Assembly: GCA_022843945.1 (NCBI GenBank)
Contig: JALHMR010000031.1
Coordinates: 1 to 57,783, forward strand
Origin: Rhodospirillaceae bacterium
Lineage (GTDB): Bacteria; Pseudomonadota; Alphaproteobacteria; CACIAM-22H2
Direction of reading: 5' to 3'
DNA: 57,783 bases
Shown here: positions 29,676 to 49,739 of the stretch, in pieces
Numbering within the stretch: position 1 is the first letter of the stretch
How the letters are laid out: each line of letters opens with the position of its first letter
Notes under the pieces: generated by a model
What the model was told of the DNA's origin: nothing
The model's input: the letters and a program-made list of their open reading frames with translations, nothing else
The model's database searches: none
Program-made: the position numbers and the translations under genes

Positions 29676-29691
29676 GGCTAGGTGAGGGATC

Positions 29692-30224: not shown

Positions 30225-30247
30225 CGTTCTGCCTCAAGCCGTCATCC

Positions 30248-30556: not shown

Positions 30557-30741
30557 GACGCAACTCCTTTCGTAGCGAGTTACTCGTCCCAGACGCTTTT
30601 CCTGTGGGTCGGTCTGCGGTCCTTATGTCCGCCGAACCGCGTGGCCGGCCCGAATCGCATCGTCGACATCATTGTCGACCCGAGGCGCTTGCGGATCCCT
30701 TAACGAAAGGTTGTCGATCGGTTAACGACGCCGGGCGCCAT

Positions 30742-31410: not shown

Positions 31411-31455
31411 GGTGCTATCCTGACCGGAACGCGGCGGAGCGCAAGAGGACAAGGG

Positions 31456-31776
31456 ATGCTCTACATCATCTACCAGCTCGACCGGCCGACCCCCGAAGCG
31501 GCGGAGATCCGCGCCCGGGTCAAGGACACGCATCTCGCCTACCTGGAGCGGCACAAGAACATCCTGGTCCTGGGCGGGGCCCTGCTGGCCGATGACGGCG
31601 TGGGCCGGCTGGGCAGCACCCTGATCATCAATGTGCCCTCGCGCCAGGCGGCCGAGGCCTTTTCGGCCGACGAGCCCTTCCGCAAGGCCGGGCTATTCCG
31701 CGAGGTGCGCATCACCCGCATGCGCCGGGGCCAGTGGAACCCGGCCGCCGCCCCGGCCACGGCGGAAGGAAATTAG
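31456..31776 (+). CDS. YciI-family protein
   Basis: 106 residues starting MLYIIYQLDRP after GAGGACAAGGG; the upstream part of the open frame is antisense to the methyltransferase. A ferredoxin-like YciI domain: HLAYLERHKNILVLGGALLA with the conserved His, and ADEPFRKAGLFREVRI with the catalytic-type Asp. YciI proteins are small dimeric enzymes or ligand binders, mostly uncharacterised. The C-terminal dozen residues are Ala/Pro-rich. Confidence 0.88.
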   Translation: MLYIIYQLDRPTPEAAEIRARVKDTHLAYLERHKNILVLGGALLADDGVGRLGSTLIINVPSRQAAEAFSADEPFRKAGLFREVRITRMRRGQWNPAAAPATAEGN

Positions 31777-31873
31777 GCGTGGAATCAGCGGTTTGCCGGG
31801 CGGCCTGGACTACGCGTCGCTTGGCGAATCAGCGTCTTTCGTGTATGAGAGGCGCCAATTGCGGCTGCGGTTT

Positions 31874-31950
31874 CGGAGCGTAGCTCAGCCTGGTAGAGCG
31901 CCAGCTTTGGGAGCTGGATGTCGCGAGTTCGAATCCCGCCGCTCCGACCA
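31874..31950 (+). tRNA. tRNA-Pro (anticodon TGG)
   Basis: Acceptor CGGAGCG pairs with CGCTCCG. D-arm TAGCTCAGCCTGGTAGAGC. Anticodon stem CCAGC/GCTGG encloses TTTGGGA, anticodon TGG. T-arm GCGAGTTCGAATCCCGC. The 3' CCA is encoded. All canonical. Confidence 0.97.
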
Positions 31951-31987
31951 TCCGCGTGATGGCCACCGCCTAGAAGGACCACCGTCG

Positions 31988-32281
31988 ATGCCCGCCCGCG
32001 TCTACAAGCCGACCAAGACCGCCATGCAGTCCGGCCGCGCCAAGACCCATGAATGGGTGGTGGAATTCGAGGGCACCGAGCGCAAGACGCAGGACCCGCT
32101 GATGGGCTGGGCCGGCTCGCGCGACACCCAGACGCAGGTCTTTCTCAACTTCCCGACGCAGGACGCGGCCATCGCCTACTGCAAGACCAACGGCATCGAC
32201 TACGCCATCGTTCCGCCGCAGGAAACGACGCTGAAACTCAAAGCCTACGCCGACAATTTCCGCTACGACCGGGCGAGATGA
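31988..32281 (+). CDS. NDUFS4-like accessory subunit of respiratory complex I
   Basis: 97 residues starting MPARVYKPTKTAMQSGRA after AGAAGGA. It matches the ETC complex I subunit (NDUFS4/AQDQ, 18 kDa) family: KTHEWVVEFEG, DPLMGWAGSRDTQTQVFLNF, AIAYCKTNGIDYAI and a C-terminal KAYADNFRYDR. Alphaproteobacteria carry this nuo-independent gene, commonly beside a tRNA as here. It supports an alphaproteobacterial origin. Confidence 0.93.
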   Translation: MPARVYKPTKTAMQSGRAKTHEWVVEFEGTERKTQDPLMGWAGSRDTQTQVFLNFPTQDAAIAYCKTNGIDYAIVPPQETTLKLKAYADNFRYDRAR

Positions 32282-32300
32282 AGGTCTCGCTATTGCTTGC

Positions 32301-32377
32301 GAGCCCTTAGCTCAGTTGGATAGAGCAACAGCCTTCTAAGCTGTAGGTCGCTGGTTCGAATCCAGCAGGGCTCGCCA
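32301..32377 (+). tRNA. tRNA-Arg (anticodon TCT)
   Basis: Acceptor GAGCCCT pairs with AGGGCTC. Anticodon stem ACAGC/GCTGT encloses CTTCTAA, anticodon TCT. T-arm CGCTGGTTCGAATCCAGC. 3' CCA encoded. Its 3' end (32357-32378) is repeated with two mismatches at 33550-33571. Confidence 0.97.
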
Positions 32378-32378
32378 C
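32357..32378 (+). repeat. attL-like copy: 3' end of tRNA-Arg
   Basis: These 22 bases (from the T-loop CGAATCC through CTCGCCAC) match 33550-33571 at 20 of 22 positions, both differences A/G transitions. Tyrosine-recombinase integration into tRNA 3' ends creates exactly this kind of direct repeat. Confidence 0.6.
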
Positions 32379-32457
32379 GTTTCAACAGCGGCGCCTGCTC
32401 AACCTGTTCGTCGTCAGCTTCTGCACGAATGCCTCGATCGAGAAAGGAAGGGATAAA

Positions 32458-33471
32458 ATGTCGAATCATTTTACCGGACTTAGCCTCGGTCCGCCGCTCG
32501 GCGAGCAAAGACTCGACCTGTGTGATCTCTACGCGTTCCAGTCGCCCAGCGACCCGTCGAGAACCGTGATCATCCTCAACGCAAATCCAAACGCCGACGC
32601 GCTCCATCCCGACGCCATTTACCGGATCAACATCGACAGCGACGGTGATTTGCTGACGGACCTCGCGCTGAGCTTCGTGTTTTCGAAGCCGCAAAACGGC
32701 AAGCAGACTTTCAGCGTGTTCCTGGCCAAGGGCGAGGCGTCGCGCTCGGCCGAAGCTGTCGGGACCAAGATAGTCGCCGATGCGGAAGTCTCATTCGGCC
32801 GCGAGCCCAACCGGGTCAAGGCGGGCGACTTCATATTCTTCGCCGGCAGTCGCAGCGACGCTTTTTTCTTCGATTTCGACGGCATCAAGAATCTGTTCGA
32901 CATCAGGGGCAAGCGGAATTTCACCGAACCGCACCTGAGCGGCAAGTCACCGTGGACGGGCGTGGATTCGAATACCGAAGCCAATGTCTTCTCGCTGGCG
33001 GTCGAATTGCCGACGAGCGAACTGGCCCCGAAGCCCGAAATACACATCTGGGGACGATGCAGCGTGCGGGAGAATGGCAAGCTGGTCCACGCCGATCGCG
33101 CGGGCCATCCGAGTGTCAGCAGCTTTTTCAACACCGACGACACGAAGCTGGAATACAACGCCAGCGAGCCGGTGAACGATCGCCAGCGCTGGCTCGAGCA
33201 GTTCGTGCATCTGATGGGCCATACGGGCAATTACTCGCGCGAAGAAGCGATTGCCGAGATCGACAGGGAACGAACCCTGCCCGACGTGCTGAGTTTCGAC
33301 CCCTCGAAGCCGGCGAAGTACCCCAACGGCCGCGTCTTCACCGACGATGTGATCGATTATCGCCTCGCCTTCCTGACCAAGGGCGAATGCCCGCCCACCG
33401 GCTTGAAACCGCACACCGATACTCTCAGGGAGTTTCCATATCTCGGCCACCCCCATCAGCAGAAGAAATAG
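32458..33471 (+). CDS. DUF4331-family protein
   Basis: 337 residues. N-terminal LGPPLGEQRLDLCDLYAFQS and a RTVIILNANPNAD block are typical of DUF4331; later SFVFSKPQ and DVLSFDPSKPAKYPNGR fit. Function unknown; no signal peptide is seen. The base composition looks less GC-rich than its neighbours by eye. It is the only gene between tRNA-Arg and a diverged duplicate of its 3' end, so it may be cargo left from an integrated element. SD AGAAAGGA precedes the ATG. Confidence 0.85.
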   Translation: MSNHFTGLSLGPPLGEQRLDLCDLYAFQSPSDPSRTVIILNANPNADALHPDAIYRINIDSDGDLLTDLALSFVFSKPQNGKQTFSVFLAKGEASRSAEAVGTKIVADAEVSFGREPNRVKAGDFIFFAGSRSDAFFFDFDGIKNLFDIRGKRNFTEPHLSGKSPWTGVDSNTEANVFSLAVELPTSELAPKPEIHIWGRCSVRENGKLVHADRAGHPSVSSFFNTDDTKLEYNASEPVNDRQRWLEQFVHLMGHTGNYSREEAIAEIDRERTLPDVLSFDPSKPAKYPNGRVFTDDVIDYRLAFLTKGECPPTGLKPHTDTLREFPYLGHPHQQKK

Positions 33472-33549
33472 CAGCGGGAAGTGCTGAGCGCGATTCGATC
33501 GCCGATCTTGTGAAGGCCGATTCTTCCGGCTCTGGAAAATCGCCGTTGG

Positions 33550-33571
33550 CGAATCCGGCGGGGCTCGCCAC
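33550..33571 (+). repeat. attR-like diverged copy of the tRNA-Arg 3' end
   Basis: CGAATCCGGCGGGGCTCGCC plus AC repeats the tRNA-Arg 3' end with 20/22 identity, 1.2 kb downstream and in the same orientation. No other part of a tRNA is present, so this is a fragment. No integrase gene lies in between. Confidence 0.6.
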
Positions 33572-33592
33572 TATCGGTCCCTGGGCCTTTTC

Positions 33593-34207
33593 ATGAACCG
33601 CGATCTCAAGCGCCTGACCCTCTTCTGGCTGGTTGGTCTGGTCCTGTCCGGCTATGCGCCGTACGACCGGCCGACCTGGTTCCTGGAAGTGCTGCCGGCG
33701 CTGATCGCGCTGCCGATCCTCTGGTACACGCGCGAGCGCTTCACCTTCTCTTCGCTCGCCTACGGTCTGATCCTCATCCACGGCCTGATCCTGATGCTCG
33801 GCTCCGCGTACACCTATTCGCGCGTGCCGATGGGCAACTGGGTCAAGGACTGGTTCGAGCTCAGCCGCAACCCTTACGACAAGCTCGGTCACTTCGCGCA
33901 GGGCTTCGTGCCGGCCATCGTGGCGCGCGAGCTCCTGATCCGTTTCTTCAACCAGCGGCGCGACTGGCTGCTCGATTTCCTGGTGGTTTGCATCTGCCTG
34001 GCGATCAGCGCGGTCTACGAGCTGCTGGAATGGGCGACGGCGCTGGCGCTGGGGCAGGGGGCGGACGACTTCATGGGCACCCAGGGCGACCCCTTCGATA
34101 CCCAATCGGACATGTTCCTGGCGCTGATCGGGGCGCTGCTGGCGATCTGGTGCCTGAGGGGCTGGCATGAGCGCTCGATGCGCCGCCTGGAGCTGCGCGG
34201 CCGCTGA
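33593..34207 (+). CDS. DUF2238 (YjdF-like) inner-membrane protein
   Basis: 204 residues, about six membrane helices. The family blocks YDKLGHFAQGFVPAIVAREL and DDFMGTQGDPFDTQSDMFLA are present. This is the conserved YjdF/DUF2238 family of unknown function. The acidic/His residues of the conserved blocks face a membrane boundary, as in metal-dependent or phosphatase-like families, but that is speculation. Confidence 0.9.
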   Translation: MNRDLKRLTLFWLVGLVLSGYAPYDRPTWFLEVLPALIALPILWYTRERFTFSSLAYGLILIHGLILMLGSAYTYSRVPMGNWVKDWFELSRNPYDKLGHFAQGFVPAIVARELLIRFFNQRRDWLLDFLVVCICLAISAVYELLEWATALALGQGADDFMGTQGDPFDTQSDMFLALIGALLAIWCLRGWHERSMRRLELRGR

Positions 34208-34246
34208 CGGCGGGAACTTCGCGGGTCTGGTGCCGTTAAGCTTGGC

Positions 34247-34942
34247 ATGACCCCCCATGCTATGACTTGGCGTTCGCGGATTCTCGCCCTGTCGCTTGGC
34301 GCTCTTTTGAGCGCCTGCGCGTTCGAACAGGCCGGCGGTGCCGACAAGGCGCCCCAGCCTCAGGCCCAGGCTGAAGAGCCCAAGACCGTCAAGATCGAAC
34401 CGGCCCAGGCCGAGCGCCTGCAGCGCATCATGGCGCCGCTCATCCAGAAGATGGACAAGCCGATCCCCAGCAAAGAGGTGAAGATCACGGTCCTGGCCGA
34501 CCCGCAAATCAACGCCGCCAATGGCGGGGGCGGGGACTTCTACGTGACCACCGGGCTGCTGCAGAAGGCCGACGATACGCGCCTGCGCGGCGTGCTGGCG
34601 CACGAGATCGCCCACGCCGATCTCGGCCACGTGGCCAACACCCAGAAACTGGCGACCGGTGTCGAGCTGGGCATCATCCTGCTCGACCAGCTCTATCCTG
34701 GTTCGCGGGCGCTCTCGCCCATCGCCGGCCAGCTCATCGTCAACGCCTATACGCGCAAGGAGGAGCACGAGGCCGACGCGCACGGCGTCGAGTTGCTCAA
34801 CCGCGCGGGCCAGAACGGCCGCAGCATCATGGCCGGTACGCTGCGCTGGCTGACCCAGGTCGCAGGCGACGGCGGTGGCGGCTTTTTCGCCTCCCATCCG
34901 GCCACCGGCGACCGCATCAAGGCGGTCGAGAATCTCCAATAG
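34247..34942 (+). CDS. M48-family zinc metalloprotease lipoprotein
   Basis: 231 residues; a second ATG five codons in (34262) is also plausible. The N terminus ends in a lipobox LLSACAF (lipidated C24), so it is anchored in the envelope. The protease domain has HEIAHADLGH (HExxH zinc motif) and a downstream KEEHEADAHGVELL third-ligand Glu, then SHPATGDRIK. Related to LoiP/BepA-type periplasmic proteases that act on outer-membrane proteins. A strong terminator follows. Confidence 0.92.
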   Translation: MTPHAMTWRSRILALSLGALLSACAFEQAGGADKAPQPQAQAEEPKTVKIEPAQAERLQRIMAPLIQKMDKPIPSKEVKITVLADPQINAANGGGGDFYVTTGLLQKADDTRLRGVLAHEIAHADLGHVANTQKLATGVELGIILLDQLYPGSRALSPIAGQLIVNAYTRKEEHEADAHGVELLNRAGQNGRSIMAGTLRWLTQVAGDGGGGFFASHPATGDRIKAVENLQ

Positions 34943-35072
34943 CGCGTCGGTATCAGGGTCCTTTCGGCCCGCTTAGGGGGTAGGCCGGAACGCCCGTTAA
35001 CGCGTGGCGTTGCCCCTACATCCCGCGTCCTCTATCCCGCCGGATCGCCCCCGGCCTGACGCGGCCTCCTCA

Positions 35073-35113
35073 ACGGTCGGCACGAAGCCATCTCAGTGCC
35101 GGCCGTCTTTTTT
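35073..35113 (+). terminator. Rho-independent terminator after the M48 protease gene
   Basis: 11-bp stem ACGGTCGGCAC/GTGCCGGCCGT (one G-T pair), 12-base loop, then CTTTTTT. It reaches the last bases of the convergent gene. Confidence 0.75.
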
Positions 35114-35423
35114 ATGTCGAGCGCTTTTTGCGGCGGTGCGCGTCCCACTTGTCGTGGGCCCAGCGCAGGGCCTTGGCCATGGGCGGGCGCAGGAAGGGCA
35201 CGTCCTGGGCGATCAGCACCAGGCCCAGCGGCACCATCCAGAAACCCAGGATCGGCAGGAAGCCGACGAAGCCGGCGCCAATCAGCAGCAGGGCGGCGGG
35301 CAGGCGCACCCAGCGCGAGCCGGGCTGCCGGATCCAGTGCACAAACCTCCCCGCCCAGCCGGGCAGCAGCGGTTCGAAGCGACGGAATTCCTCGTCGAGA
35401 TCGGGTTGGGAGCGGGCGGCCAC
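35112..35423 (-). CDS. Small membrane protein of unknown function
   Basis: 103 residues. The amphipathic N terminus (DLDEEFRRFEPLLPGWAGRF) is followed by two close membrane helices (LPAALLLIGAGFVGFLP and GFWMVPLGLVLIAQDVP) and a basic C-terminal tail with KALRWAHDKWDAHRRKKR. Such proteins are conserved in alphaproteobacteria and sometimes mis-named after tryptophan synthase. Function unknown. Confidence 0.8.
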   Translation of the reverse strand: MAARSQPDLDEEFRRFEPLLPGWAGRFVHWIRQPGSRWVRLPAALLLIGAGFVGFLPILGFWMVPLGLVLIAQDVPFLRPPMAKALRWAHDKWDAHRRKKRST

Positions 35424-35472
35424 GATGGACTTGTTCTACTGCCTCTTGCCGCAAAGCGCAGCCAGACTCATG

Positions 35473-35721
35473 TCAGGCGAAGCGGATGCCGGCCCTTCGC
35501 ATATGAGCGATCGTGCCGTCGATACGTTCCATCGCGCGGATCAGGGTCGCCCATACCTCGTCGGTGATATCGATGCCGTGCCGGTCGAGGAAGGCGCCGA
35601 TGTCGCCGCGCAGGCCGACCAGGTCGGCGGCCACTTCGCCGGGATTCTCGGTGGCGCACAGGCTGGCGCCGACGCTCCATACCCGGGTCTCGAGCGCGGC
35701 AAGGGTGATGGGAAGAGACAT
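35473..35721 (-). CDS. Small hypothetical protein
   Basis: 82 residues from the ATG that follows CGGAGC; the frame stays open to 35805 but that extension runs through a double hairpin. The visible part is helical (LPITLAALETRVWSVGASLC, DLVGLRGDIGAFLDRHGIDI, WATLIRAMERIDGTIAHMRR). No family recognised. The same-strand membrane-protein gene is 49 bases downstream. Confidence 0.65.
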   Translation of the reverse strand: MSLPITLAALETRVWSVGASLCATENPGEVAADLVGLRGDIGAFLDRHGIDITDEVWATLIRAMERIDGTIAHMRRAGIRFA

Positions 35722-35766
35722 GACAGCAGCTCCGTGACAGCAAGCCTTGGGTTTCTGCCCAGGACC

Positions 35767-35798
35767 CCGACGAAAGTCGGCGTGGCGGTATTCCGCCA
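35767..35798 (-). promoter_or_regulatory. Two adjacent tetraloop hairpins in a leader
   Basis: CCGAC-GAAA-GTCGG (35767-35780) and TGGCGG-TATT-CCGCCA (35783-35798), two bases apart and 46 bases upstream of the small hypothetical gene on the minus strand. Transcribed, they would form a compact structured leader. The rest of 35722-35936 shows no gene. Confidence 0.4.
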
Positions 35799-35936
35799 GA
35801 AGCACGGCTGTTTGTAAGGCAGCATCTTTGCGGTGATGGCGCCCCTGGCGTTGCCACGGCGGTTTACACCGAAGGGCGCTTGCTTATCCGAACGAGCGCG
35901 CGCGCCAGGGGACGCGGGACCGAACGCGAAAGTGCC

Positions 35937-36413
35937 CTAAGGCGCGCGGGTGCGCCGCCACTCCCAGGGGGGCACGAACCGGCCGGCCCACAGCCCGACC
36001 CGCGCCGCCCGGGCGGCGGCCTCATCGGCGGCGAAGTCCTGGCCGGTCTCGGGATCGGCCAGCGCCCAGCCGCGGCGGACCATGTGCCGGTTGACGTTGA
36101 TGCCGTGCTCGCCGCCGAGATGGCAGATCACGGTCGGCAGGTCGCCGTTGAGCCCGGTCATCCGGCAGCTGGCCCAATGATGCTCGAAACGTTCGGCCAG
36201 CGCCCAGCCGGCCTCCTGCACACAGTCGTAGGGGACGCCGGCGCGCTCGCAGGTCTGTCCGCTGTCCGGCGCGTCGATGCCGTGCAGCCGCAAGACCCTG
36301 GCGCCGATCTCGATCGTGTCGCCGTCGACGATGCGGGCCGGGCCGGTGAAATCGGTGGCGGCCGCAGGAAGGCTCAGGGCGACACCGACGAGGACGAGGA
36401 TCAGCCGTCTCAT
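35937..36413 (-). CDS. Exported thermonuclease (SNase)-fold protein
   Basis: 158 residues with a signal peptide (RRLILVLVGVALSLPAAA). SNase-like fold: RIVDGDTIEIGARVLRLHGI with the metal Asp pair and Arg, then IDAPDSGQ (Asp in place of the usual Glu), NVNRHMVRRGWALADP and ARAARVGLWAGRF. The YGR block that supplies the second catalytic Arg is replaced by GDLPTVICH, so full nuclease activity is doubtful. Four Cys near the middle suggest disulfides. It starts 7 bases after the sensor kinase ends. Confidence 0.87.
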   Translation of the reverse strand: MRRLILVLVGVALSLPAAATDFTGPARIVDGDTIEIGARVLRLHGIDAPDSGQTCERAGVPYDCVQEAGWALAERFEHHWASCRMTGLNGDLPTVICHLGGEHGINVNRHMVRRGWALADPETGQDFAADEAAARAARVGLWAGRFVPPWEWRRTRAP

Positions 36414-36420
36414 GGCCTGG

Positions 36421-38307
<1,887 letters not shown>

Positions 38308-38399
38308 CTCTGCAAGTCAACCGCTTCCGTGCTTCGCACGGCGCGGGCGACCCCCGTTTCGCCGCTATCACTGTAGCAATACCCGGGCGCGCGCCCAAG

Positions 38400-40430
38400 C
38401 TATCTGCGCGTGACGGCGTCCAGGGCAGCGCAGAAATGTTCCTGCAAAGCTTCGACCGGCGCGCTATCGCCATAGAGCGATACCGCGCTGGCGGTGACCC
38501 GTGCCGCCTGCTCGCTTCGCCAGGCGGCATCGAGCCCCAGGCGCACCGCGTGGCTCACGTAGTCCGCCGTGCTGTGCGCGACCGTATCGGTCAGCCCCAT
38601 GCGCCGCATGATGCCGTGACTGACCCGCCCGCGCAGGAAGCGACCCGGCATTGTGACGATGGGCAGGCCGGCGGCGACCGCCTCCAGGGTCGTGTTGCCG
38701 CCTGACCAGTCGAGGCTGTCGAGGTAGATATCGGCGGCGGCATTGAGCCCTGCGTAGTGCGCGGTACTCATCGGCGGCAGGAACACCACATGCCGATCGG
38801 CATCAAGCCCGGCGGCGCGGAACGCCGCGGTCAGACGCTGGCGGGTGAGGGCGGTGAATTCCGGCGACAGGCTGTGCGCGATGAACAGGAACTGGGCGTT
38901 GGGGACGGACTGCGCGATGCGCGGGAGCAGATCGTCATGCGCCGGCCGGTATTTGTAGAGCGACTGGCAGCAGAGATACGTGACCGCATCCGGGCGTACG
39001 CCGGCGGCCCGCAGGTCCGGCGCGACGGGCGTCAGCTCGAGCGGCTGGTAGTCGAAGGACAGGTTGGGCAGCCGCACCAGCCGTTCGCTATAGAACGCCT
39101 CCGAGCCGGGCGCCTCCATCAGCTCGCCGGACAGGAAGTAATCCAGGGTCGGCAGCCCGGTGGTGTCCGGATGACCCATCGCCAGGTACTGCACGGGCGC
39201 GAGGCGCAGCGCCGCCAGGCGGGCGGTCGTCGGATCCATGCCGACCTCCGGATAGACGATAATGTGCGGCGCCGCGGCGCGGATGCCCGCCGCCATCGCC
39301 TCGAAGCTCGGTGCGCTCTCGACGAAGCTGTCGAAGAGCCGGCGCGCGCGCAGCGTCTCTTCGTCGTGCCGCCGCGCGGTGGAAAAGCCGAGAACCCGGA
39401 AGCGCCGGCGATCGAGACGGCTGACCCAGCCGCGGTAGAGTTTCCACACCGAATGGTCGCGGAAAAACCCGGAGACGAAGGCGACGCGCAGCCTTCCGTC
39501 CGCCTCGCGTGGCGGCACGGGCAGGGGCTCGACCCATTGCGGATAGCGGGCGGCATGCAGCCTGTGGAGCAACCCGCCGAACAGCGACTGCAGCTCGCGG
39601 TCATCCTGTCCCTGATAGGCGAGATAGAAGGGCAGGATCTGCGCCGCGACGGGGGCGGCGTCGGCGCATTCGCGCGGGCTCGCGGCGGCGTAGTGGTCGC
39701 AGATCTCCCGGAGGGCGGCGCCGTAGCGGCTGCGGCTCTCGGCGATCTGCGTCTCGCTGGCGTAGCAGACCCGCAATTCGGCCAGGCAGGTGCCGAAGCG
39801 CGCCGCCGGCGATCCGGGATCGAGCGCCCGGGCGCGGCCGAAAGCCTCGCGTGCGCCCTCTGAATCGCCATGATCCATCAGGCCGCGCCCGAGATTGATC
39901 CAGCTCAGCGTGTCGCCGGGGCGGGCGGCGACGATGCGGCGGAACTCGCCGATCGCCTCGAGGATGCGGCCACGATCCTTGGTGGCGGCGGCGAGGTCGG
40001 CGGCGGCCTCGTGATTCTCCGGCTCCAGCGACAGGACGCGGCGCAGGACCGTGATGGCGCCGTCGAGATCGCCCTTCTCGCGCAGCACCATGGCCAGGTG
40101 ATAATGGGCGGCGGCCATGCCGGGCTGCAGCATCGTGGTCTCGCGGAAGCAGACGAGCGCCTCGTCGAGCCGGCCGAGCTCGAAGAGGACGACGCCGAGA
40201 TTCTTGCGGGCTTCGGCGTGCCGGGGTGCCAGCGCCACCGCGCGCTCGATCAGCGGCGCCGCTTCCGCCGCCCGGCCGCTGCGCCAGGCGGCCACGCCCG
40301 CGAGATGCAGGGCGTCGGCATTGTCGGGCTGGATTGCCAGGGCGGCGCGCGCGCGGGCCTCCGCCTCGGCCACCTGGCCGGCGGCGAGGGACGCCACACC
40401 TTGCGCGACCAGGATGGCGACGTCGCTCAT
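38400..40430 (-). CDS. SPINDLY/OGT-type protein O-GlcNAc transferase with TPR repeats
   Basis: 676 residues. The ATG overlaps the upstream gene's stop (ATGA). The N-terminal ~230 residues are TPR repeats (ALAIQPDNADALHLAGVAAW, HAEARKNLGVVLFELGRLDE, and others). The C-terminal ~400 are a GT41 glycosyltransferase: VAFVSGFFRDHSVWKLYRGW, APVQYLAMGHPDTTGL, YLCCQSLYKYRPAHDDLLPR, DIYLDSLDWSGGNTTLEAVA and the UDP-binding VTMPGRFLRGRVSHGIMRRM. Family role: transfer of a sugar to Ser/Thr of proteins. In bacteria targets include flagellin and surface proteins; the target here is unknown. Confidence 0.92.
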   Translation of the reverse strand: MSDVAILVAQGVASLAAGQVAEAEARARAALAIQPDNADALHLAGVAAWRSGRAAEAAPLIERAVALAPRHAEARKNLGVVLFELGRLDEALVCFRETTMLQPGMAAAHYHLAMVLREKGDLDGAITVLRRVLSLEPENHEAAADLAAATKDRGRILEAIGEFRRIVAARPGDTLSWINLGRGLMDHGDSEGAREAFGRARALDPGSPAARFGTCLAELRVCYASETQIAESRSRYGAALREICDHYAAASPRECADAAPVAAQILPFYLAYQGQDDRELQSLFGGLLHRLHAARYPQWVEPLPVPPREADGRLRVAFVSGFFRDHSVWKLYRGWVSRLDRRRFRVLGFSTARRHDEETLRARRLFDSFVESAPSFEAMAAGIRAAAPHIIVYPEVGMDPTTARLAALRLAPVQYLAMGHPDTTGLPTLDYFLSGELMEAPGSEAFYSERLVRLPNLSFDYQPLELTPVAPDLRAAGVRPDAVTYLCCQSLYKYRPAHDDLLPRIAQSVPNAQFLFIAHSLSPEFTALTRQRLTAAFRAAGLDADRHVVFLPPMSTAHYAGLNAAADIYLDSLDWSGGNTTLEAVAAGLPIVTMPGRFLRGRVSHGIMRRMGLTDTVAHSTADYVSHAVRLGLDAAWRSEQAARVTASAVSLYGDSAPVEALQEHFCAALDAVTRR

Positions 40431-41179
40431 GCGAATGCCTTGACCAGGAAGCTGCCGCCGATCGCCAGGTACATGACGAACAGCCAGAGGGCGAAGCGGC
40501 GCTCGTCCAGACGCACACGCACGAGCTGGCCGAGCTTGATGCCGAGCAGGGCGGGGATGCAGGCGAGCAGCGACTGGAGGAGCGTCGTGCCGTCGGCGAT
40601 GCCGAAGCCGGCAAGGCCCGCGCCCAGGCCGAGGCCCCCGACGAAATACATGAGCGAGATGACGCCGACGAACTCGTCCTTGGAGAGGCGCAAGCCCGCG
40701 AGATAGACCAGCAGCGGCGGGCCGTAGAAAGTCGTCGTGCCGCCGAGGAAGCCGCCGATCACGCCGCACAGCGGTCCCAGCCAGCGTTCGTGCGCCGGCG
40801 CCACGCGGAGCTTGGGTTGGAAGCGGGCGAGGAGGGCGATGCCGATGATCGCCACGCCGATCAGGGCGTAGATCGTACGCTCCGGGATGAGGACCAGCGC
40901 CTTGACGCTGATCCCGATGCAGATGACCAGGGCGAGGAGCGTCGGCCCGAAGCGCCGGAGCCGGGCCATGACCGCCGGCCAGCCGCCGATGAACCCCTGG
41001 GCGAGGTTGGTGGCCAGGATCGGCACGACCACCAGCGCCGCCGCATTGGCCACGCTCATGAACAGCGTCAGGAACGGCATGGCGACCAGCGGCAGGCCGA
41101 GGCCGAACGTGCCCTTGACCAGGCCGCCCGCCATGATGGAGAGCGCGATCCACAGGAGATACGTGGCGGTGTCCATCAC
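40427..41179 (-). CDS. TauE/SafE-family membrane transporter
   Basis: 250 residues with about eight membrane helices in two halves. Family features are GLVKGTFGLGLPLVAMPFLT in the first half and GGFLGGTTTFYGPPLLVYLA in the second. Members export sulfite, sulfoacetate or other organic anions. Its stop overlaps the glycosyltransferase start, so the two are translationally coupled. hisI ends 22 bases upstream. Confidence 0.9.
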   Translation of the reverse strand: MMDTATYLLWIALSIMAGGLVKGTFGLGLPLVAMPFLTLFMSVANAAALVVVPILATNLAQGFIGGWPAVMARLRRFGPTLLALVICIGISVKALVLIPERTIYALIGVAIIGIALLARFQPKLRVAPAHERWLGPLCGVIGGFLGGTTTFYGPPLLVYLAGLRLSKDEFVGVISLMYFVGGLGLGAGLAGFGIADGTTLLQSLLACIPALLGIKLGQLVRVRLDERRFALWLFVMYLAIGGSFLVKAFA

Positions 41180-41201
41180 GGCCGCCGGCGTGCGGGCGCG
41201 C

Positions 41202-41612
41202 TCACGCCTTGTAGAGCGTGCCGGGATCGACGGTCACGTCGGCGATGGTCTCCAGCCGGCCGTTGCGCACGGCGCGGAAGAAGCAGTTGCGCCGGCCGGT
41301 GTGGCAGGCCACGCCCTTCTGGTCGACGAGCAGCAGCAGCGTGTCGCCATCGCAATCGAGGCGCAGCTCCACCAGGCGCTGGCTCTGCCCGGAGGTCTCG
41401 CCCTTGCGCCACAGCTTCATGCGCGAGCGCGACCAGTAGTGGACTTCGCCGGTTTCGAGCGTGCGCTCCACCGCCAGGCGATTCATCCAGGCGAGCATCA
41501 GCACCTCGCCGCTGTCGTGCTGCTGGGCAATGGCAGCGATCAGCCCGTCGCGGTCGAAGGCGATCTCGGCCAGCAGGTCGGCGCCCTGCGTATGCGAGGA
41601 GGGGGCACTCAT
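41202..41612 (-). CDS. hisI: Phosphoribosyl-AMP cyclohydrolase HisI
   Basis: 136 residues from the ATG overlapping the metC stop (ATGA). Catalyses ring opening of phosphoribosyl-AMP in histidine biosynthesis. Signatures: MLAWMNRLAVERTLETGEVH, WSRSRMKLWRKGETSGQ, the metal cluster RLDCDGDTLLLLVDQ and the zinc-ligand CHTGRRNCFF. Only the cyclohydrolase is encoded, not the fused HisE pyrophosphatase. Separated from other his genes. Confidence 0.96.
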   Translation of the reverse strand: MSAPSSHTQGADLLAEIAFDRDGLIAAIAQQHDSGEVLMLAWMNRLAVERTLETGEVHYWSRSRMKLWRKGETSGQSQRLVELRLDCDGDTLLLLVDQKGVACHTGRRNCFFRAVRNGRLETIADVTVDPGTLYKA

Positions 41613-42790
41613 GACGAGTTCTTGCGCAGCCGCGCGAAGCCTTTCTCGAGATCGGCGATCAGGTCGGCGGGGTCCTCGAGCCCGGCATGGATGCGGATCA
41701 GCGGCCCGCGGTCCTTCCACGCGGTCGCGGTGCGGATCGCGCTGGGATCCGAGGGCAGGGCCAGGCTTTCGAAGCCGCCCCAGCTGTACCCCATGCCATA
41801 GAACTCCAGTCCGTCGAGCATCGCCGCCACCGAAGCCTCGCCGACCGGCTTGAGCTCGATCGCGAACAGGCCCGAGGCGCCGGTATAGTCGCGCTTCCAG
41901 ATCGGGTAGCCGGGATCATCGGGCAAAGCAGGGTGCAGCACGCGCGCCACTTCCGGCCGCTGCTTCAGCCAGCGGGCGAGGGTGAGGCCGGTCTCCTGGT
42001 GACGCTGCAGGCGCACCGAGAGCGTGCGCAATCCGCGCAGCGCCATGTAGCAGTCGTCTGGGCCCGAGGCGGCGCCGAAATCGTCGGCCGCACGGCGCAG
42101 CGCAGGGTAGGCTGCTTCGTTCGCGGTCAGGATGCCCATCATCAAGTCGGAGTGACCCGAGATGTACTTCGTGGCCGAAAGCAGCGAGACGTCGACGCCG
42201 AGCGACAGCGGCCTGAAGAACAGCGGCGTTGCCCAGGTGTTGTCGAGCACGGTGGTGATCTTGCGTGCCTTGGCCACGGCGACGATCGCCGGCACGTCCT
42301 GCATCTCGAAGGTCAGCGAGCCGGGGGATTCGAGAAAGATCACCTTCGTGTTGTCGCGGATCAGCGTGGCGATGCCGCCGCCGATCCCGGGATCGTAATA
42401 GGTCGTGCTCACGCCAAAGCGCGCCAAGACCGTGTCGCAGAGGCGCCGCGACGGTCCGTAGACGGTATCGACCATCAGCACATGGTCACCGCTTTTCACA
42501 TAGGCCATCAGCGCGACGACGATAGCTGCCACGCCGGAACCGACGACGATCGAGTGATGCCCGCCCTCGAGCGCGCAGACTGCCTCTTCCAGGGCAAAGG
42601 TCGTCGGCGTGCCGTAGCGGCCGTAGCGGCTCTTTGTCGGATTGCGCTGCTTCTGCGCCGCGTGCAGGGCCTCGACGGTGGGAAAGAGGATCGTCGAGGC
42701 GTGGTAGACGGGTGGGTTGACCACACCATGGTTGGCGGCCGGATCGCGGCCGGCATTGACGACGATGGTATCGGGCTTCGGCTTGTCCAT
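41609..42790 (-). CDS. metC: Cystathionine beta-lyase (PLP, trans-sulfuration family)
   Basis: 393 residues, full length. PLP fold with SRYGRYGTPTTFALEEAV, VLDNTWATPLFFRPL and the PLP lysine K208 in LSATKYISGHSD. The IVVNAGRDPAANHGVVNPPV start and SWGGFESLALP near the end fit cystathionine beta-lyase (homocysteine from cystathionine) rather than the gamma enzymes. Translationally coupled to hisI downstream. Confidence 0.92.
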   Translation of the reverse strand: MDKPKPDTIVVNAGRDPAANHGVVNPPVYHASTILFPTVEALHAAQKQRNPTKSRYGRYGTPTTFALEEAVCALEGGHHSIVVGSGVAAIVVALMAYVKSGDHVLMVDTVYGPSRRLCDTVLARFGVSTTYYDPGIGGGIATLIRDNTKVIFLESPGSLTFEMQDVPAIVAVAKARKITTVLDNTWATPLFFRPLSLGVDVSLLSATKYISGHSDLMMGILTANEAAYPALRRAADDFGAASGPDDCYMALRGLRTLSVRLQRHQETGLTLARWLKQRPEVARVLHPALPDDPGYPIWKRDYTGASGLFAIELKPVGEASVAAMLDGLEFYGMGYSWGGFESLALPSDPSAIRTATAWKDRGPLIRIHAGLEDPADLIADLEKGFARLRKNSS

Positions 42791-42870
42791 GAGGGCGCCT
42801 AACGTCTTGCGTGCCTTGAGATTCCGGGCTACCGTTCGGCCAAGACGTACACGTTTGGCCTCGAAATTGC

Positions 42871-42917
42871 GAGAGTGTCTCTTCTAAAGGGCGTCTCTTC
42901 TAGAGAGTGTCTCTTCT
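42871..42917. repeat. Three tandem 16-bp-period repeats upstream of aapJ
   Basis: G(T/C)GTCTCTTCT begins at 42875, 42891 and 42907, an exact 16-base period. In addition the small palindrome GAGA-GTG-TCTC occurs at 42871-42881 and 42903-42913, 32 bases apart. It lies between divergent metC and aapJ, 75 bases before the aapJ start, and may be an operator array for the amino-acid transporter. Confidence 0.85.
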
Positions 42918-42991
42918 CAAGAGCACTGGTAATGGCGGGGCCGGGCCATGGCGACGTCTAGAAATCAAATCTCACCAACGGGGATATCGTT

Positions 42992-44011
42992 ATGAAACAT
43001 CTGGGAAGGATCGCGGCCACCGCCGCCATCGCACTGGGCGCGCTTGCCGGCACCGCTCAGGCGCAGCAATCGACCGTAGACGCGGTCAAGGCCAAGGGCT
43101 TCGTGCAGTGCGGCGTCAACACCGGTCTCGCTGGTTTCAGCGCCCCTGACAGCCAGGGCGTGTGGAAGGGCCTCGATGTCGACATGTGCCGCGGCGTGGC
43201 CGCCGCCGTGTTCGGCGACGCCAGCAAGGTCCGCTATACCGGCCTGACGGCGCAGCAGCGTTTCACCGCCCTGCAGTCCGGCGAGGTCGACATCCTCGCC
43301 CGTAACACGACCTGGACGCTGCAGCGCGACACTTCGCTCGGCCTCGACTTCGTGGCGGTTAACTTCTACGACGGCCAGGGCTTCATGGTGAAGAACTCGC
43401 TGAACGTGAAGAGTGCCAAGGAGCTGAACGGCGCCACCGTCTGCGTGCAGCCCGGCACCACGACCGAGCTGAACCTCGCCGACTATTTCCGGGCCAACCG
43501 GATGCAGTTCAAGCCGGTGGTCATCGAGAAGATGGAAGAAGTGGTCGCCGCCTACCTGGCCGGCCGCTGCGACGCCTACACCACCGACATGTCGGGCCTC
43601 GCCTCGACCCGTTCGGCCCAGGGCGCCAATGCAAGCCAGCACCTGATTCTGCCGGACGTCATCTCGAAGGAGCCTCTCGGGCCGGCCGTGCGTCACGGCG
43701 ACAACAAGTGGGCCGACATCGTCCGCTGGACCTTCAACGTGATGGTCGAGGCGGAGGAGATGGGCCTGACCTCGGCCAATATCGACAGCAAGATGAATGA
43801 CCCGAACCCGGGCATCCAGCGCCTGGTCGGCAAGACCGGCGACATGGGCAAGCAGCTCGGTCTCGAGAACAACTGGTCGTACAACATCATCAAGCAGGTC
43901 GGAAACTACGGCGAGAGCTACGAGCGCAACATCAAGCCGATCGGGCTTGAGCGCGGCGTGAACGAGCTGTGGTCTAAGGGGGGCATCATGTACGCCCCGC
44001 CGGTCCGCTGA
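42992..44011 (+). CDS. aapJ: General L-amino-acid ABC transporter, binding protein AapJ
   Basis: 339 residues with a signal peptide (HLGRIAATAAIALGALAGTA, cleavage near QAQQ). AapJ hallmarks: VKAKGFVQCGVNTGLAGFS, DSQGVWKGLDVDMCRGVAAA, EVDILARNTTWTLQRDTSLG and a C-terminal NIKPIGLERGVNELWSKGG. It binds a broad range of L-amino acids in the periplasm. First gene of aapJQMP. A strong hairpin separates it from aapQ. Confidence 0.96.
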   Translation: MKHLGRIAATAAIALGALAGTAQAQQSTVDAVKAKGFVQCGVNTGLAGFSAPDSQGVWKGLDVDMCRGVAAAVFGDASKVRYTGLTAQQRFTALQSGEVDILARNTTWTLQRDTSLGLDFVAVNFYDGQGFMVKNSLNVKSAKELNGATVCVQPGTTTELNLADYFRANRMQFKPVVIEKMEEVVAAYLAGRCDAYTTDMSGLASTRSAQGANASQHLILPDVISKEPLGPAVRHGDNKWADIVRWTFNVMVEAEEMGLTSANIDSKMNDPNPGIQRLVGKTGDMGKQLGLENNWSYNIIKQVGNYGESYERNIKPIGLERGVNELWSKGGIMYAPPVR

Positions 44012-44019
44012 CAGACAAG

Positions 44020-44054
44020 ACGGCCGCCACTCACACCAGAGTGGCGGCCGTTTC
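44020..44054 (+). terminator. Hairpin between aapJ and aapQ
   Basis: A 12-bp perfect stem CGGCCGCCACTC/GAGTGGCGGCCG closes a six-base loop, is flanked by an A/T pair, then TTTCTC. Placement suggests partial termination or 3' protection giving excess binding protein over permease. Confidence 0.75.
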
Positions 44055-44095
44055 TCTGATGACTGAGCTCTAGTCGAGAGACGGGGAAGGGCGCC

Positions 44096-45292
44096 ATGGC
44101 GTCGATCCCGCGCAGTTCCCGCCGCCCGGCGCCGCCGGCCGTCCGGCTGTCCCTCAGCGATCCCTTCGTCCGCTCGATCGTCTACCAGATCCTGGTCGTC
44201 GGCGGCGTGGCGCTGATCATCTGGTACCTGGTCAGCAACACCATGACAAACATGGAGGCGCGCAAGATCGCCTCCGGCTTCGACTTCCTCAACCGCGAGG
44301 CTGGCTTCGCCATCAGCGAGCACAGCATCGATTACTCGCCCGCGGACACCTATTTCCGCGCGCTCGTCGTGGGCGTTCTCAATACGCTCCTCATCGCCGT
44401 ACTCGGCATCGTTTTAGCGACGATCCTCGGCACGGTGATCGGCATCGGACGCCTGGCGAAGAACTGGCTGATCGCCAAGGTCTGCTCGGTCTATGTCGAG
44501 GTCATGCGCAACCTGCCGCTCGCGGTGCAGCTGTTCTTCTGGTACGCGATGATCATCGAGAACCTGCCCGGGCCGCGACAGGCGATAAGCCCGCTACCCG
44601 GCGTGTTCCTGTCCAGCCGCGGCATCATGGTTCCCGTACCGGGCGACGATCCGGCCTATGGCTGGATGCTGATCGCCTGCCTGATCGGCGTCGTCGCCAC
44701 CCTCCTGATCTCGCGCTGGGCGAGGGCGCGGCAGGCCGCGACGGGCCAGCAATTCCCGATGATGCGCGCCGCGGCTGGCCTGATCCTCGGCTTGCCGCTC
44801 CTGGCCTGGCTGGCCGGCGGCGCTCCCACGACGCTCGACTGGCCGGAACTGCGCGGCTTCAACTTCCAGGGCGGCGGCAGTATGTCGCCGGAGTTCGCGG
44901 CGCTGCTGCTGGGCCTCGTCACCTACACCGCCGCCTTCATCGCCGAGATCGTGCGTAGCGGCATCCTCGCCGTGAGCCACGGCCAGACCGAGGCCGCCTC
45001 GGCGCTCGGCCTGCGGCGCAGCCTCAACCTGCGCCTCGTCGTTCTGCCGCAGGCGCTGCGGGTCATCATCCCGCCGATGATCAGCCAGTACCTGAACATC
45101 ACCAAGAACAGCTCGCTGGCCGTCCTGATTGGCTATCCGGATATCGTCTCGATCGCCAACACGGCGCTCAACCAGACGGGCCAGGCGATCGAAGGCATCG
45201 CCATCATCATGCTGGTCTACCTGACCGTCAGCCTGTCGATCGCGGTCTTCGGCAACTGGTACAACAAACGCCTCGCGCTGGTGGAGCGCTAG
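44096..45292 (+). CDS. aapQ: General L-amino-acid ABC transporter permease AapQ
   Basis: 398 residues; longer than ordinary His/Glu-type permeases because of the extended loops typical of AapQ. Eight or so helices; the permease motif is EIVRSGILAVSHGQTEAASA followed by LGLRRSLNLRLVVLPQALR. Forms the membrane channel with AapM. One base separates it from aapM. Confidence 0.95.
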   Translation: MASIPRSSRRPAPPAVRLSLSDPFVRSIVYQILVVGGVALIIWYLVSNTMTNMEARKIASGFDFLNREAGFAISEHSIDYSPADTYFRALVVGVLNTLLIAVLGIVLATILGTVIGIGRLAKNWLIAKVCSVYVEVMRNLPLAVQLFFWYAMIIENLPGPRQAISPLPGVFLSSRGIMVPVPGDDPAYGWMLIACLIGVVATLLISRWARARQAATGQQFPMMRAAAGLILGLPLLAWLAGGAPTTLDWPELRGFNFQGGGSMSPEFAALLLGLVTYTAAFIAEIVRSGILAVSHGQTEAASALGLRRSLNLRLVVLPQALRVIIPPMISQYLNITKNSSLAVLIGYPDIVSIANTALNQTGQAIEGIAIIMLVYLTVSLSIAVFGNWYNKRLALVER

Positions 45293-45293
45293 G

Positions 45294-46409
45294 ATGTCCG
45301 ACGCGGCCGCCACCCTGAAGTCCCTGCCGCCTTCCGGCGGCTTCAGCGGCTCGCCCTTCGCCCTGTGGGCGAAGGCCAACCTGTTTCCGAACTGGTGGAG
45401 CACCGTCGTCACGCTGGTGCTCGCCTACCTGATCCTCAAGTTCGGCTTCGGCGTGTTGTCCTGGGCGTTTTTCAATGCCGTGTGGACCGTCGAAAACCAG
45501 GACACCGAGGTCTGCCGTCAGCTCAAGGGGGTCGGCGCCTGCTGGGCGCTGATCACGGAAAAGTACCGGTTCATCCTGTTCGGGACCTATCCGTTCCAGC
45601 AGCACTGGCGGCCGACGCTGGTCATCGGGATCTTCCTGGCGCTCTACGGCGTCAGCACCGTCCGCAGCCTGTGGAACTACCGCCTGGGCGTCATCTGGGT
45701 CGCCGGCCTGCTGAGCATTGGCGTCCTGATGTGGGGCGGCGTCTTCGGCCTGTCCTATGTCGAGCAGGAGCGCTGGGGCGGCCTGCCCATCACCCTGATG
45801 CTGGCGACCTTCGGCATCGCGCTCGCCTTCCCGCTGGGCATCCTGCTGGCGCTCGGCCGGCGCTCCGACATGCCGGCCATCAAGGCGATCTGCGTCGCCT
45901 ATATCGAGTTGATCCGCGGCGTGCCGCTGATCAGCCTGCTGTTCATGGCCTCGGTGATGCTGCCGCTGTTCCTGCCCGAAGGCCTGACCATTGATAAGCT
46001 GCTGCGCGCCCAGGTGGCGATCATCCTGTTCGCCGGCGCCTATCTCGCCGAGGTCATCCGCGGCGGCCTGCAGGCGATCCCGAAGGGCCAGTACGAGGCG
46101 GCCGACGCGCTGGGCCTCAGCTACTGGAAGAAGACCGGCTTCATCATCCTGCCGCAGGCGCTCAAGATCGTCATTCCGCCGCTGGTCAACACCTTCATCG
46201 GCATGTTCAAGGATACCTCGCTGGTCGTGATCATCGGCATTTACGACCTGCTGGGTGCCGCGAAGATCTCCACCATCGAGCCGGCCTGGCGCGGCTTCAG
46301 CGTCGAGGCCTATGTCTTCGTGTCGATCATCTACTTCGTCTTCTGCTTCGCCATGTCGAAGTACAGCCAGAAGGTCGAAGTGGAACTCTCACGCTCCCAT
46401 AAACGCTGA
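45294..46409 (+). CDS. aapM: General L-amino-acid ABC transporter permease AapM
   Basis: 371 residues, multi-helix, with [20 protein letters not shown] and [19 protein letters not shown] as the ATPase-contact loop. The N terminus is Pro/Gly-rich and cytoplasmic. Pairs with AapQ; adjacent gene order matches the known aapJQMP operon. Confidence 0.95.
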
Positions 46410-46423
46410 GCCGGGGAAATCCG

Positions 46424-47188
<765 letters not shown>

Positions 47189-47191
47189 GCC

Positions 47192-47764
47192 TTACAAATT
47201 GAGCGGCAGGGGGCGCGGATCGCGGATCCGGCGCACGACCTCTTTGTAGGGCACGAAGCCGGCGCGCACGTAGCAGGGCAGCGCCTTGGGGTGATCCAGC
47301 GAGCAGGTATGGACCCAGAAGCGGCTGGCATGGGCCTGCCAGGCCATGTCGACGGCGGCGCGCAGCAGCGTCGGTCCCAGGCGGTGGCCGATGAACTTCG
47401 GCACGATGCCGAAATAGGCGAGCTCGATCTCCGGTTGCTTGCGGGCATCGAGCTCGGCGTAGCCGGCGGGCTCGCCCTCGGCATAGATCACGTAAAGCCA
47501 GAGATTGGGGTCGGCCAGGACCTCGCCCAGCTCGCCGTCGCCCATGCGACGGCGCTCGTGCCACAGCCAGGGCGCGCCGACCGTGTTGTAGAGGTAGCGA
47601 TAGAACGGCACCGAGGGATGCTCGACGCGGTCGATGCGATAGGCGACGGCCGGCGCCGGCGGCCGGGGCAGGTCCGGGCGGGCGATCATCTCCAGATAGG
47701 TGACCGTCACCTCGAGGGTGCCGGGGGCCGCGAATTTCAGGTGCGGAGTGGGCAGGGCGGTCAT
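47192..47764 (-). CDS. GNAT-family N-acetyltransferase
   Basis: 190 residues from the ATG overlapping the sseA stop (ATGA). The acetyl-CoA loop is YFGIVPKFIGHRLGPTLLRA; the C-terminal FWVHTCSLDHPKALPCYVRA completes a GNAT fold. Substrate unknown. Third gene of a coupled cysK-sseA-GNAT unit, so it may acetylate a thiol or amino-acid metabolite; inference only. Confidence 0.88.
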   Translation of the reverse strand: MTALPTPHLKFAAPGTLEVTVTYLEMIARPDLPRPPAPAVAYRIDRVEHPSVPFYRYLYNTVGAPWLWHERRRMGDGELGEVLADPNLWLYVIYAEGEPAGYAELDARKQPEIELAYFGIVPKFIGHRLGPTLLRAAVDMAWQAHASRFWVHTCSLDHPKALPCYVRAGFVPYKEVVRRIRDPRPLPLNL

Positions 47765-48627
47765 GCGCTGGCGACCGGCGTGTCCCCCGGCAGGCCCCAT
47801 TCAGACCACGAGCCATCGTAGACCGCGACCTTGTCGGCGCCGATCAGGTGCAGGCCGAGCGCCAGCACGCAGGCGGTGACGCCGGAGCCGCAGCTGGTGA
47901 TCACCGGCCGGGCCGGATCGATGCCGGCCTCTGCGAATTTGGCCTTGAGCCCGGCGGCCGGCAGCACCGCCTTGGTGTCAGGATCGACCAGCAGGTTGTA
48001 GGGCAGGTTGCAGCTTCCCGGGATGTGACCACCGCGCAAGCCCGCGCGCGGCTCGGGATCGGCGCCCTTGAATCGCCCGGCGGAGCGCGCATCGAGCACC
48101 TGGGCGGCCCTGCTTGCCAGGTTGTCCTTCACGTCCTCTTTCTTACGCACGAGTTCCGGACGGAAGCGGGCGGTGAAGGTCTTCTTCGGCGCAATCACGG
48201 GCTTGCCATCGACCGGCCGGCCTTCGCGCTTCCATTTTGGCAGGCCGCCATCGAGCACGGACACCTTGTCATGGCCGAACAGCCGGAACATCCACCAAGC
48301 CCGCGCGGCGCTCATCAGCCCGTAAGAGTCGTAGCAGACCACGTGATCGTCGTTGCCGATGCCCAGGGCAGAGACCGCAGCCGAGAAATCGGCGGGCTTG
48401 GGGATCATGTGCGGCAGGTCGTTCGTCGGATCGGAGATACCGTCGACATCGAAGAACGACGCGCCGGCGATATGCTCGGCTGTGTACTCGGCGCGCGGAT
48501 CGCGCTTGGCGGTCGGCAGGTGGTAAGTCGCGTCGACCACCCGAACCTTCGGATCGTTCAGATGCGCCGCCAGCCACTCGGTCGAGACGAGGGCTTCCGG
48601 ATGAACGTAGGCAGGATCGTTAGCCAT
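47761..48627 (-). CDS. sseA: 3-mercaptopyruvate/thiosulfate sulfurtransferase
   Basis: 288 residues with two rhodanese domains. The active-site loop is C246-GSGVT in ITSCGSGVTACV; the CGSG[VT] form indicates mercaptopyruvate preference. N-terminal VRVVDATYHLPTAKRDPRAE and HIPGSCNLPY are typical SseA. It moves sulfane sulfur from mercaptopyruvate to acceptors, linking cysteine breakdown to the cysK gene it overlaps by one base. Confidence 0.94.
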   Translation of the reverse strand: MANDPAYVHPEALVSTEWLAAHLNDPKVRVVDATYHLPTAKRDPRAEYTAEHIAGASFFDVDGISDPTNDLPHMIPKPADFSAAVSALGIGNDDHVVCYDSYGLMSAARAWWMFRLFGHDKVSVLDGGLPKWKREGRPVDGKPVIAPKKTFTARFRPELVRKKEDVKDNLASRAAQVLDARSAGRFKGADPEPRAGLRGGHIPGSCNLPYNLLVDPDTKAVLPAAGLKAKFAEAGIDPARPVITSCGSGVTACVLALGLHLIGADKVAVYDGSWSEWGLPGDTPVASA

Positions 48628-49670
48628 CAGACGGGAACGAGCGGTGTAGCGACGGGAATGGCTCCTTTGCCTTCGAGCCAGTCGGGCACCGGTAGGTTCT
48701 TGGAGCGCAGGAATTCTGGGTTGAACAGCTTGCTGGCGTAGCGCTGGCCGCCGTCGCAGAGCAGGGTGACGATGGTATGGCCGGGCCCGAGCTGCCGGGC
48801 CAGGCGGATGGCGCCGGCCACGTTAATGCCCGTCGAGCCGCCGAGGAACAGGCCTTCGTTCTTCAGCAGGTCGAAGATGATCGGCACGGCCTCGCTGTCG
48901 GGAATCTGGAAGGCGTCGTCGACCACGATGCCTTCGAGATTCTTGGTGATGCGGCCCTGGCCGATGCCCTCGGTGATCGAGCTGCCCTCGGACTTGAGCT
49001 GCCCGGTCTTGTAGTAGCTGTAGAGGGCGGCCCCCATCGGGTCGGCCAGCGCGATCCGTACTCTCGGGTTCTTGTTTTTGAGATAAAGCGACATGCCGGC
49101 CAGCGTGCCGCCGGTGCCGACCGCCGAGACGAAACCGTCGATCTTGCCGTCGGTCTGCTCCCAGATCTCGGGCCCCGTGGTCTCGAGATGCGCCCGGCGG
49201 TTGGCGACGTTGTCGAACTGGTTGGCCCAGATGGCGCCGGCCGGCTCCTTCTTGCCGATCTCCTCGGCGAGCCGTCCGGAGACCTTCACGTAGTTGTTGG
49301 GGTTGGCGTAGGGCACCGCCGGAACCTCGCGCAGGTCGGCGCCGCAGAGCCGCAGCATTTCCTTCTTTTCCTGGCTCTGCGTATTGGGAATCACGATTAC
49401 CGAGCGGTAACCACGGGCATTGGCGACCAGGGCGATGCCGATGCCGGTATTGCCGGCCGTGCCCTCGACGATGACCCCGCCAGGCTTCAGCAGGCCGCGT
49501 TCCTCGGCATCCTTGATGATGAATAGCGCCGCCCGGTCCTTGACCGAGCCGCCGGGGTTGAGGAACTCCGCCTTGCCCAGGATGGTGCAGCCGGTGAGCT
49601 CCGAAGCGGCCTTCAGCCGGATCAGGGGCGTGCGGCCGATGGCGTCGATTGAGTCGGTTCGGATATCCAT
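48627..49670 (-). CDS. cysK: Cysteine synthase A (O-acetylserine sulfhydrylase)
   Basis: 347 residues from MDIRTDSIDAIGRTPLIRLK; a TTG 12 codons earlier is less likely. The PLP lysine is K44 in NPGGSVKDRAALF. EGTAGNTGIGIALVANARGY, AVGTGGTLAGM and GGSTGINVAGAIRLA are conserved. It condenses O-acetylserine with sulfide. The C terminus is about 30 residues longer than short CysK forms. First gene of the sulfur cluster with TGATG coupling to sseA. Confidence 0.93.
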   Translation of the reverse strand: MDIRTDSIDAIGRTPLIRLKAASELTGCTILGKAEFLNPGGSVKDRAALFIIKDAEERGLLKPGGVIVEGTAGNTGIGIALVANARGYRSVIVIPNTQSQEKKEMLRLCGADLREVPAVPYANPNNYVKVSGRLAEEIGKKEPAGAIWANQFDNVANRRAHLETTGPEIWEQTDGKIDGFVSAVGTGGTLAGMSLYLKNKNPRVRIALADPMGAALYSYYKTGQLKSEGSSITEGIGQGRITKNLEGIVVDDAFQIPDSEAVPIIFDLLKNEGLFLGGSTGINVAGAIRLARQLGPGHTIVTLLCDGGQRYASKLFNPEFLRSKNLPVPDWLEGKGAIPVATPLVPV

Positions 49671-49739
49671 GGCGGGGAGCTTAGGAGGGATGGCAGAGGC
49701 GATCAACCGGCGGGGACTAGGGTCTTTGGAGGGAGCCGT

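Follow-up and report, generated by a model that had tools for sequence, protein, structure and literature searches.

The 3′ end of a tRNA gene is a usual target for integration. In the descriptions excerpted here from three papers, tyrosine recombinases act between direct repeats, generally 8-60 bp, within attachment (att) sites (PMC5704250); integration at tRNA genes leaves partial copies of them at the far end of the element (PMC9897764); and additive genomic islands of 330 bp-42 kb, with 1-63 coding sequences (CDS), have repeats of the terminal 20 nt of tRNA-Lys in front of them (PMC10872708), so that a one-gene unit at a tRNA gene is already known. The locus considered here lies in a stretch of 57,783 nt (the window: contig JALHMR010000031.1 of assembly GCA_022843945.1, from a Rhodospirillaceae bacterium), where the 3′ end of a tRNA-Arg(TCT) gene recurs on the far side of a single gene of the DUF4331 family. 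It is a fresh instance of a well-known kind, the footprint of mobile DNA in tRNA genes, and was probably left by a tRNA-targeted insertion into the 3′ end of tRNA-Arg(TCT) that has since decayed, in the manner of a cis-mobilizable element (CIME) or of an additive island with one gene. Its parts are:

32301..32377, + strand: tRNA-Arg(TCT) gene (ARAGORN), the presumed target, intact
32357..32378, + strand: repeat copy 1, CGAATCCAGCAGGGCTCGCCAC, the last 21 tRNA bases and the next base, C; attL-like
32458..33471, + strand: DUF4331 gene, 337 aa (PF14224, E 1.5e-30), sole gene of the interval, probably horizontally acquired
33550..33571, + strand: repeat copy 2, CGAATCCGGCGGGGCTCGCCAC, a 3′ tRNA fragment; attR-like

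A CIME has att-like direct repeats at both ends and lacks genes for integration or transfer (by the definition excerpted from PMC5704250). Here too a direct repeat of the tRNA 3′ end bounds the element, as it also would in a tRNA-targeted genomic island, and, judging by PF00589 and the one gene in the interval, the unit appears to retain att-like sites without an integrase of its own. As originally predicted, no integrase was seen at the site: contig C31, on which the window lies, has no tyrosine-integrase match (PF00589; serine integrases were not searched for), which makes the unit CIME-like, its ends kept and its machinery gone. Its content is probably horizontally acquired, as in tRNA-targeted islands. 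It differs from a CIME in that only one gene is left and that any functional partner element or excision is conjectural. The additive flexible genomic islands of Candidatus Methylopumilus (as outlined in the portion of PMC10872708 used here) likewise have tRNA 3′-end repeats, and single-gene islands fall within their range, but they lie at tRNA-Lys with repeats at varying frequencies, whereas the window has two copies at tRNA-Arg(TCT). The tRNA gene fragments of integrated elements in PMC9897764 share with it a partial copy of the tRNA at the distal end of the acquired stretch, although the examples in the section drawn on span about 9-23 kb, and the unit here 1.2 kb. It is not a tycheposon (a tRNA border plus a tyrosine recombinase, 4-200 kb, as characterized in an excerpt of PMC10872708), being 1.2 kb long and having no tyrosine-recombinase match on its contig.

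The two repeat copies are in direct orientation, 1193 bp apart from start to start, and identical at 20 of 22 positions, as the original prediction had it; both differences are A to G. With these two positions left free, the only exact matches to the pattern in the organism's own genome (5,383,319 bases) are the two copies. Four other places come within three mismatches, one with 2 and three with 3, so that even the closest of them carries 2 further mismatches and the earlier worry that the repeat might recur elsewhere by chance is not borne out; the reversed pattern, as a control, has no match in the same 5.38 Mb. At ≤3 mismatches, 0.01 matches are expected by chance in the window and two, the repeat copies, are observed. 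When the 2 kb that follow the tRNA were dinucleotide-shuffled 300 times, no match exceeded 16/22, a value reached in 9 shuffles. Genome-wide rarity, window expectation, and shuffles together rule out a chance repeat. In 15 relatives, the best second direct copy of the last 22 tRNA bases (in about 1 to 15 kb downstream) is 15/22; the same test gives 19/22 for the window, with an inverted control that reaches 16.

Copy 2 was also considered as a decayed second tRNA gene. No similarity is detectable upstream of the 22-base repeat, where 305 of 1000 shuffles extend equally well and the local score is 10 against a shuffle mean of 11.79, and this candidate was therefore rejected for want of any 5′ trace. 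Compensating changes in the T-stem of copy 2 were dropped from consideration as well, since no 5′ tRNA part can be detected.

The DUF4331 gene scores 107.3 bits against the PF14224 profile (curated cut-off 27) and is, as predicted, alone between the copies, which are separated by 79 bp, the open reading frame (ORF) at 32458-33471, and 78 bp. It is probably foreign and horizontally acquired, to go by its sequence and distribution, because it has no match in the 22 other genomes of the family, has a lower GC content and odd codon use, and is 89-91% identical to alphaproteobacterial relatives. Within the window, where all comparisons of composition were made, its GC is 0.596 (0.642-0.730 in 14 other ORFs picked by hand), in line with the low value first suspected, and its third-position GC (GC3) is 0.780 (0.773-0.933 in the same ORFs). 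Its codon fit is 0.215, against 0.397-0.614 in 13 of the 14; the exception, 35476-35805, has no Pfam match (codon fit 0.191, GC3 0.773).

Of 61 genomes searched, three have DUF4331 matches: its own and, at 30% identity, two distant members of the class. None was found in the 22 other family genomes, some of them incomplete, so that presence in all relatives, which the original prediction had named as contrary to it, is not what is found. A scan of species genomes gave 166 DUF4331 relatives; the best 80, 91% to 72% identical, are spread over several phyla. The three nearest loci (L090, L091, and L092) are alphaproteobacterial, at 89-91% protein identity, and their fourfold-site identities are 116/147, 122/149, and 121/144 (79-84%), those of the 23 other gapless loci listed running from 33/127 to 86/129 (26-67%) in a comparison that leaves out gapped loci and loci from L120 on. 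The NDUS4-like neighbour to the left of the tRNA gene, by contrast, is only 50-61% identical within the family. A tree of 81 proteins groups the window DUF4331 with the three nearest loci (support 100/83 with L090 and L092, 99/87 adding L091, and 99/41 for a fork with L090 alone); Pseudomonadota require 7 changes on this tree, which, the tool cautions, is no proof of transfer. DNA similarity to these three loci spans at most 32427-33476, extending just a few bases beyond the gene and not into the repeats.

Although contig C31 has none, the genome has 12 Phage_integrase (PF00589) matches, all on other contigs. A parallel at the same tRNA is found in a relative, G015 (genus g7), which has an intact tRNA-Arg at C59:360452-360526, 1.9 kb before the end of that contig (locus pair L068/L069), and, on a second contig, a 50-nt, 96% copy of the 3′ part of the tRNA-Arg (C58:2102-2151), preceded by an opposite-strand gene with Arm-DNA-bind_3 and Phage_integrase domains. 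The C59 and C58 tRNA parts may bound one island.

A mechanism consistent with these observations can be proposed. An element with a tRNA-like attachment core would have recombined with the tRNA-Arg(TCT) gene, presumably by means of an integrase, so that the tRNA would have stayed complete on the left while a 22-bp copy came to lie on the right. The element would have brought in the DUF4331 gene from another alphaproteobacterium, its integrase and remaining genes would have been lost afterwards, and the two copies would then have diverged by two A-to-G changes. What remains would be a CIME-like att-DUF4331-att unit of 1193 bp, repeat to repeat.

Several observations weigh against such an insertion. 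The T-stem of copy 1 is common to the tRNAs of 7 of the 15 relatives and that of copy 2 occurs in none, so copy 2 is either decayed or of other origin. Of 385 class genomes, none has a tRNA-like end fitting copy 2 at ≤1 mismatch, with a pattern that has the usual T-loop TT and that the window's own copy 2 fails too; viral contigs, as a source of a donor, gave no exact matches. The original prediction took the repeat for a footprint of site-specific integration, and the non-chance repeat, the foreign gene, and the integrase in G015 speak for this; its expectation that relatives lacking DUF4331 would have the tRNA followed directly by the DUF2238 gene failed, no relative examined having such an empty site: the DUF2238 gene is patchy in the family and other DNA follows the tRNA. 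G001, the only other genome of the genus, has no NDUS4 match, and its best tRNA match is 77%. The 79 and 78 bp beside the DUF4331 gene are too short for an integrase remnant, the G015 contigs C59 and C58 are unjoined in the assembly, and at no other DUF4331 locus examined is the gene flanked on both sides by a tRNA-end repeat. The histories of the two copies and of the DUF4331 gene might be separate. Finally, a single genome does not discriminate between an island that decayed and a small cassette mobilized in trans.

In the latter case, the 1193-bp unit would be a very small non-autonomous cassette that moved in circular form, consisting of the gene and a single 22-bp core, and used an integrase supplied in trans. 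The interval contains the DUF4331 gene and nothing else, integrase matches exist elsewhere in the genome, and additive islands start from 330 bp and 1 CDS, with 20-nt tRNA-Lys repeats (in the part of PMC10872708 concerned with them), all of which suits a cassette; there is, however, no second example. Among 76 DUF4331 loci with enough flank, only L106, from Nostoc, equals the window in the score of a direct repeat flanking the gene; this repeat is AT-rich and was not read as a tRNA end, and the inverted control over DUF4331 loci scored above the direct test, up to 27. The three nearest homologue loci, moreover, have no tRNA. This explanation is unlikely, and DUF4331 as a regular repeat-flanked cassette is unsupported; that a one-gene 1.2 kb cassette using a borrowed integrase at tRNA genes is one route by which solitary DUF4331 genes have come to be distributed among phyla is highly improbable.

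As a second possibility, a donor fragment carrying a tRNA end and DUF4331 could have recombined with the resident tRNA gene by homology, with no integrase involved. Copy 2 indeed differs from the tRNA-Arg(TCT) end in each of the 15 relatives examined, as a donated end might. Contrary to the suggestion that other DUF4331 genes might lie beside tRNA-Arg, however, tRNA-Arg(TCT) is absent from all 80 homologue loci (≤6 kb on each side), and the tRNA end sought in the 385 class genomes was in none of them, which makes this route distinctly unlikely. Two separate events, in which an older element left copy 2 as a scar and DUF4331 came later by another route, would fit the unlike DUF4331 neighbourhoods in the nearest relatives (four loci, read by eye) and a right interval, to about 38.4 kb, that is likewise variable or unsampled, but they require two insertions inside 1.2 kb, an interval that the gene fills to within 79 and 78 bp, and are improbable.

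A decayed tRNA-targeted insertion is thus the preferred reading, and its extent can be considered in the light of the flanking sequences:

31988..32281, + strand: NDUS4-like gene (PF04800), conserved left flank
33593..34207, + strand: DUF2238 gene (PF09997), right neighbour, patchy in the family
33572..38400, no strand assigned: interval from copy 2 to the conserved block on the right; in relatives either variable or unsampled
38508..49709, no strand assigned: conserved right block, beginning with a TPR/Glyco_transf_41 gene (DNA match to G001 contig C77)

Counting the window's own genome, NDUS4 is found in 17 of the 23 genomes of the family. Of the 16 loci examined in relatives, 15 have tRNA-Arg(TCT) next to it, and the remaining one, in G013, lies on a contig that breaks off 24 matched bases into the tRNA. 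In the five genomes of genus g5 tested (G016, G022, G009, G005, and G020), the tRNA is directly followed by a small reading frame ending DDLFPK, a different sequence with other ORFs follows it in G014, also of g5, and the ORFs listed after the tRNA in g7 and g4 genomes look different again by eye. Since other DNA follows the tRNA in relatives, the change may extend past 33571. DUF2238 is found in 5 of the 23 family genomes, own included, and in the four other carriers no tRNA lies near it within the flanks fetched (≤1.5 kb).

On the right, contig C77 of G001 matches window 38508-49709 at 80-83% DNA identity and ends before the tRNA junction. The block includes a gene, at 41609-42790, that we take to be MetC-like, and further genes that are presumably transporter genes. 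In eight relatives of genus g5 (G016, whose contig cuts the gene, G022, G009, G005, G020, G017, G012, and G018), 1.8-3.6 kb lie between the tRNA and the start of the MetC-like gene, compared with 9.2 kb in the window. Among the relatives examined, the stretch from tRNA-Arg to the MetC-like gene (window 32378-41000) differs in both length and content. When window 28400-38600 was searched against the DNA of eight relatives, no G001 match at 32.0-36.4 kb stood among the matches listed. The roughly 6 kb that separate the tRNA from the conserved block are therefore either genome-specific or unsampled in G001, so that the 1.2 kb between the repeats may be just one change among several, and the unit may be part of a larger one.

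Some further observations concern DUF4331 itself. The 80 homologue loci hold 4 tRNA genes within 500 bp of DUF4331 and 7 farther away (binomial p 0.015), a post hoc and thin association that was not used. In Streptomyces, a tRNA-Ser(GGA) lies about 200 bp from DUF4331 at L155:7201-7290, and at L153:7180-11143 its place is taken by a 28/30 copy of the tRNA-Ser(GGA) 3′ end, with the intact tRNA 3.87 kb beyond. Four Nostoc loci (L100, L102, L103, and L106) have DUF4331 genes of GC 0.55-0.56 in flanks of 0.40-0.44, as if from a GC-richer source. DUF4331 occurs on 22 plasmid records and in no phage record; in viral contigs 20 stretches fit a pattern, of which none was confirmed. Four near loci, read by eye, share no common neighbours.

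No function was found for DUF4331. The literature searched contained no paper naming DUF4331, and a sequence search of solved structures gave one match, at E 0.2. An AlphaFold2 model of middling confidence (mean predicted local distance difference test score, pLDDT, 67.0) has no clear structural match in Foldseek (best E 1.5e-3, template modelling scores near 0.1). The best VIA-align Z, 7.0, is to antibody rows with an immunoglobulin-like arrangement, lies within the tool's stated background, and was not used to draw a function.

With the G015 parallel, the window makes tRNA-Arg(TCT) a probable site of integration for the family, and it offers a clean, small example of a single foreign gene left beside a tRNA gene. 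DUF4331 itself is the more open matter: it is strongly conserved, with a mean column identity of 84% in a 23-sequence alignment, and proteins 72-91% identical occur in several phyla.
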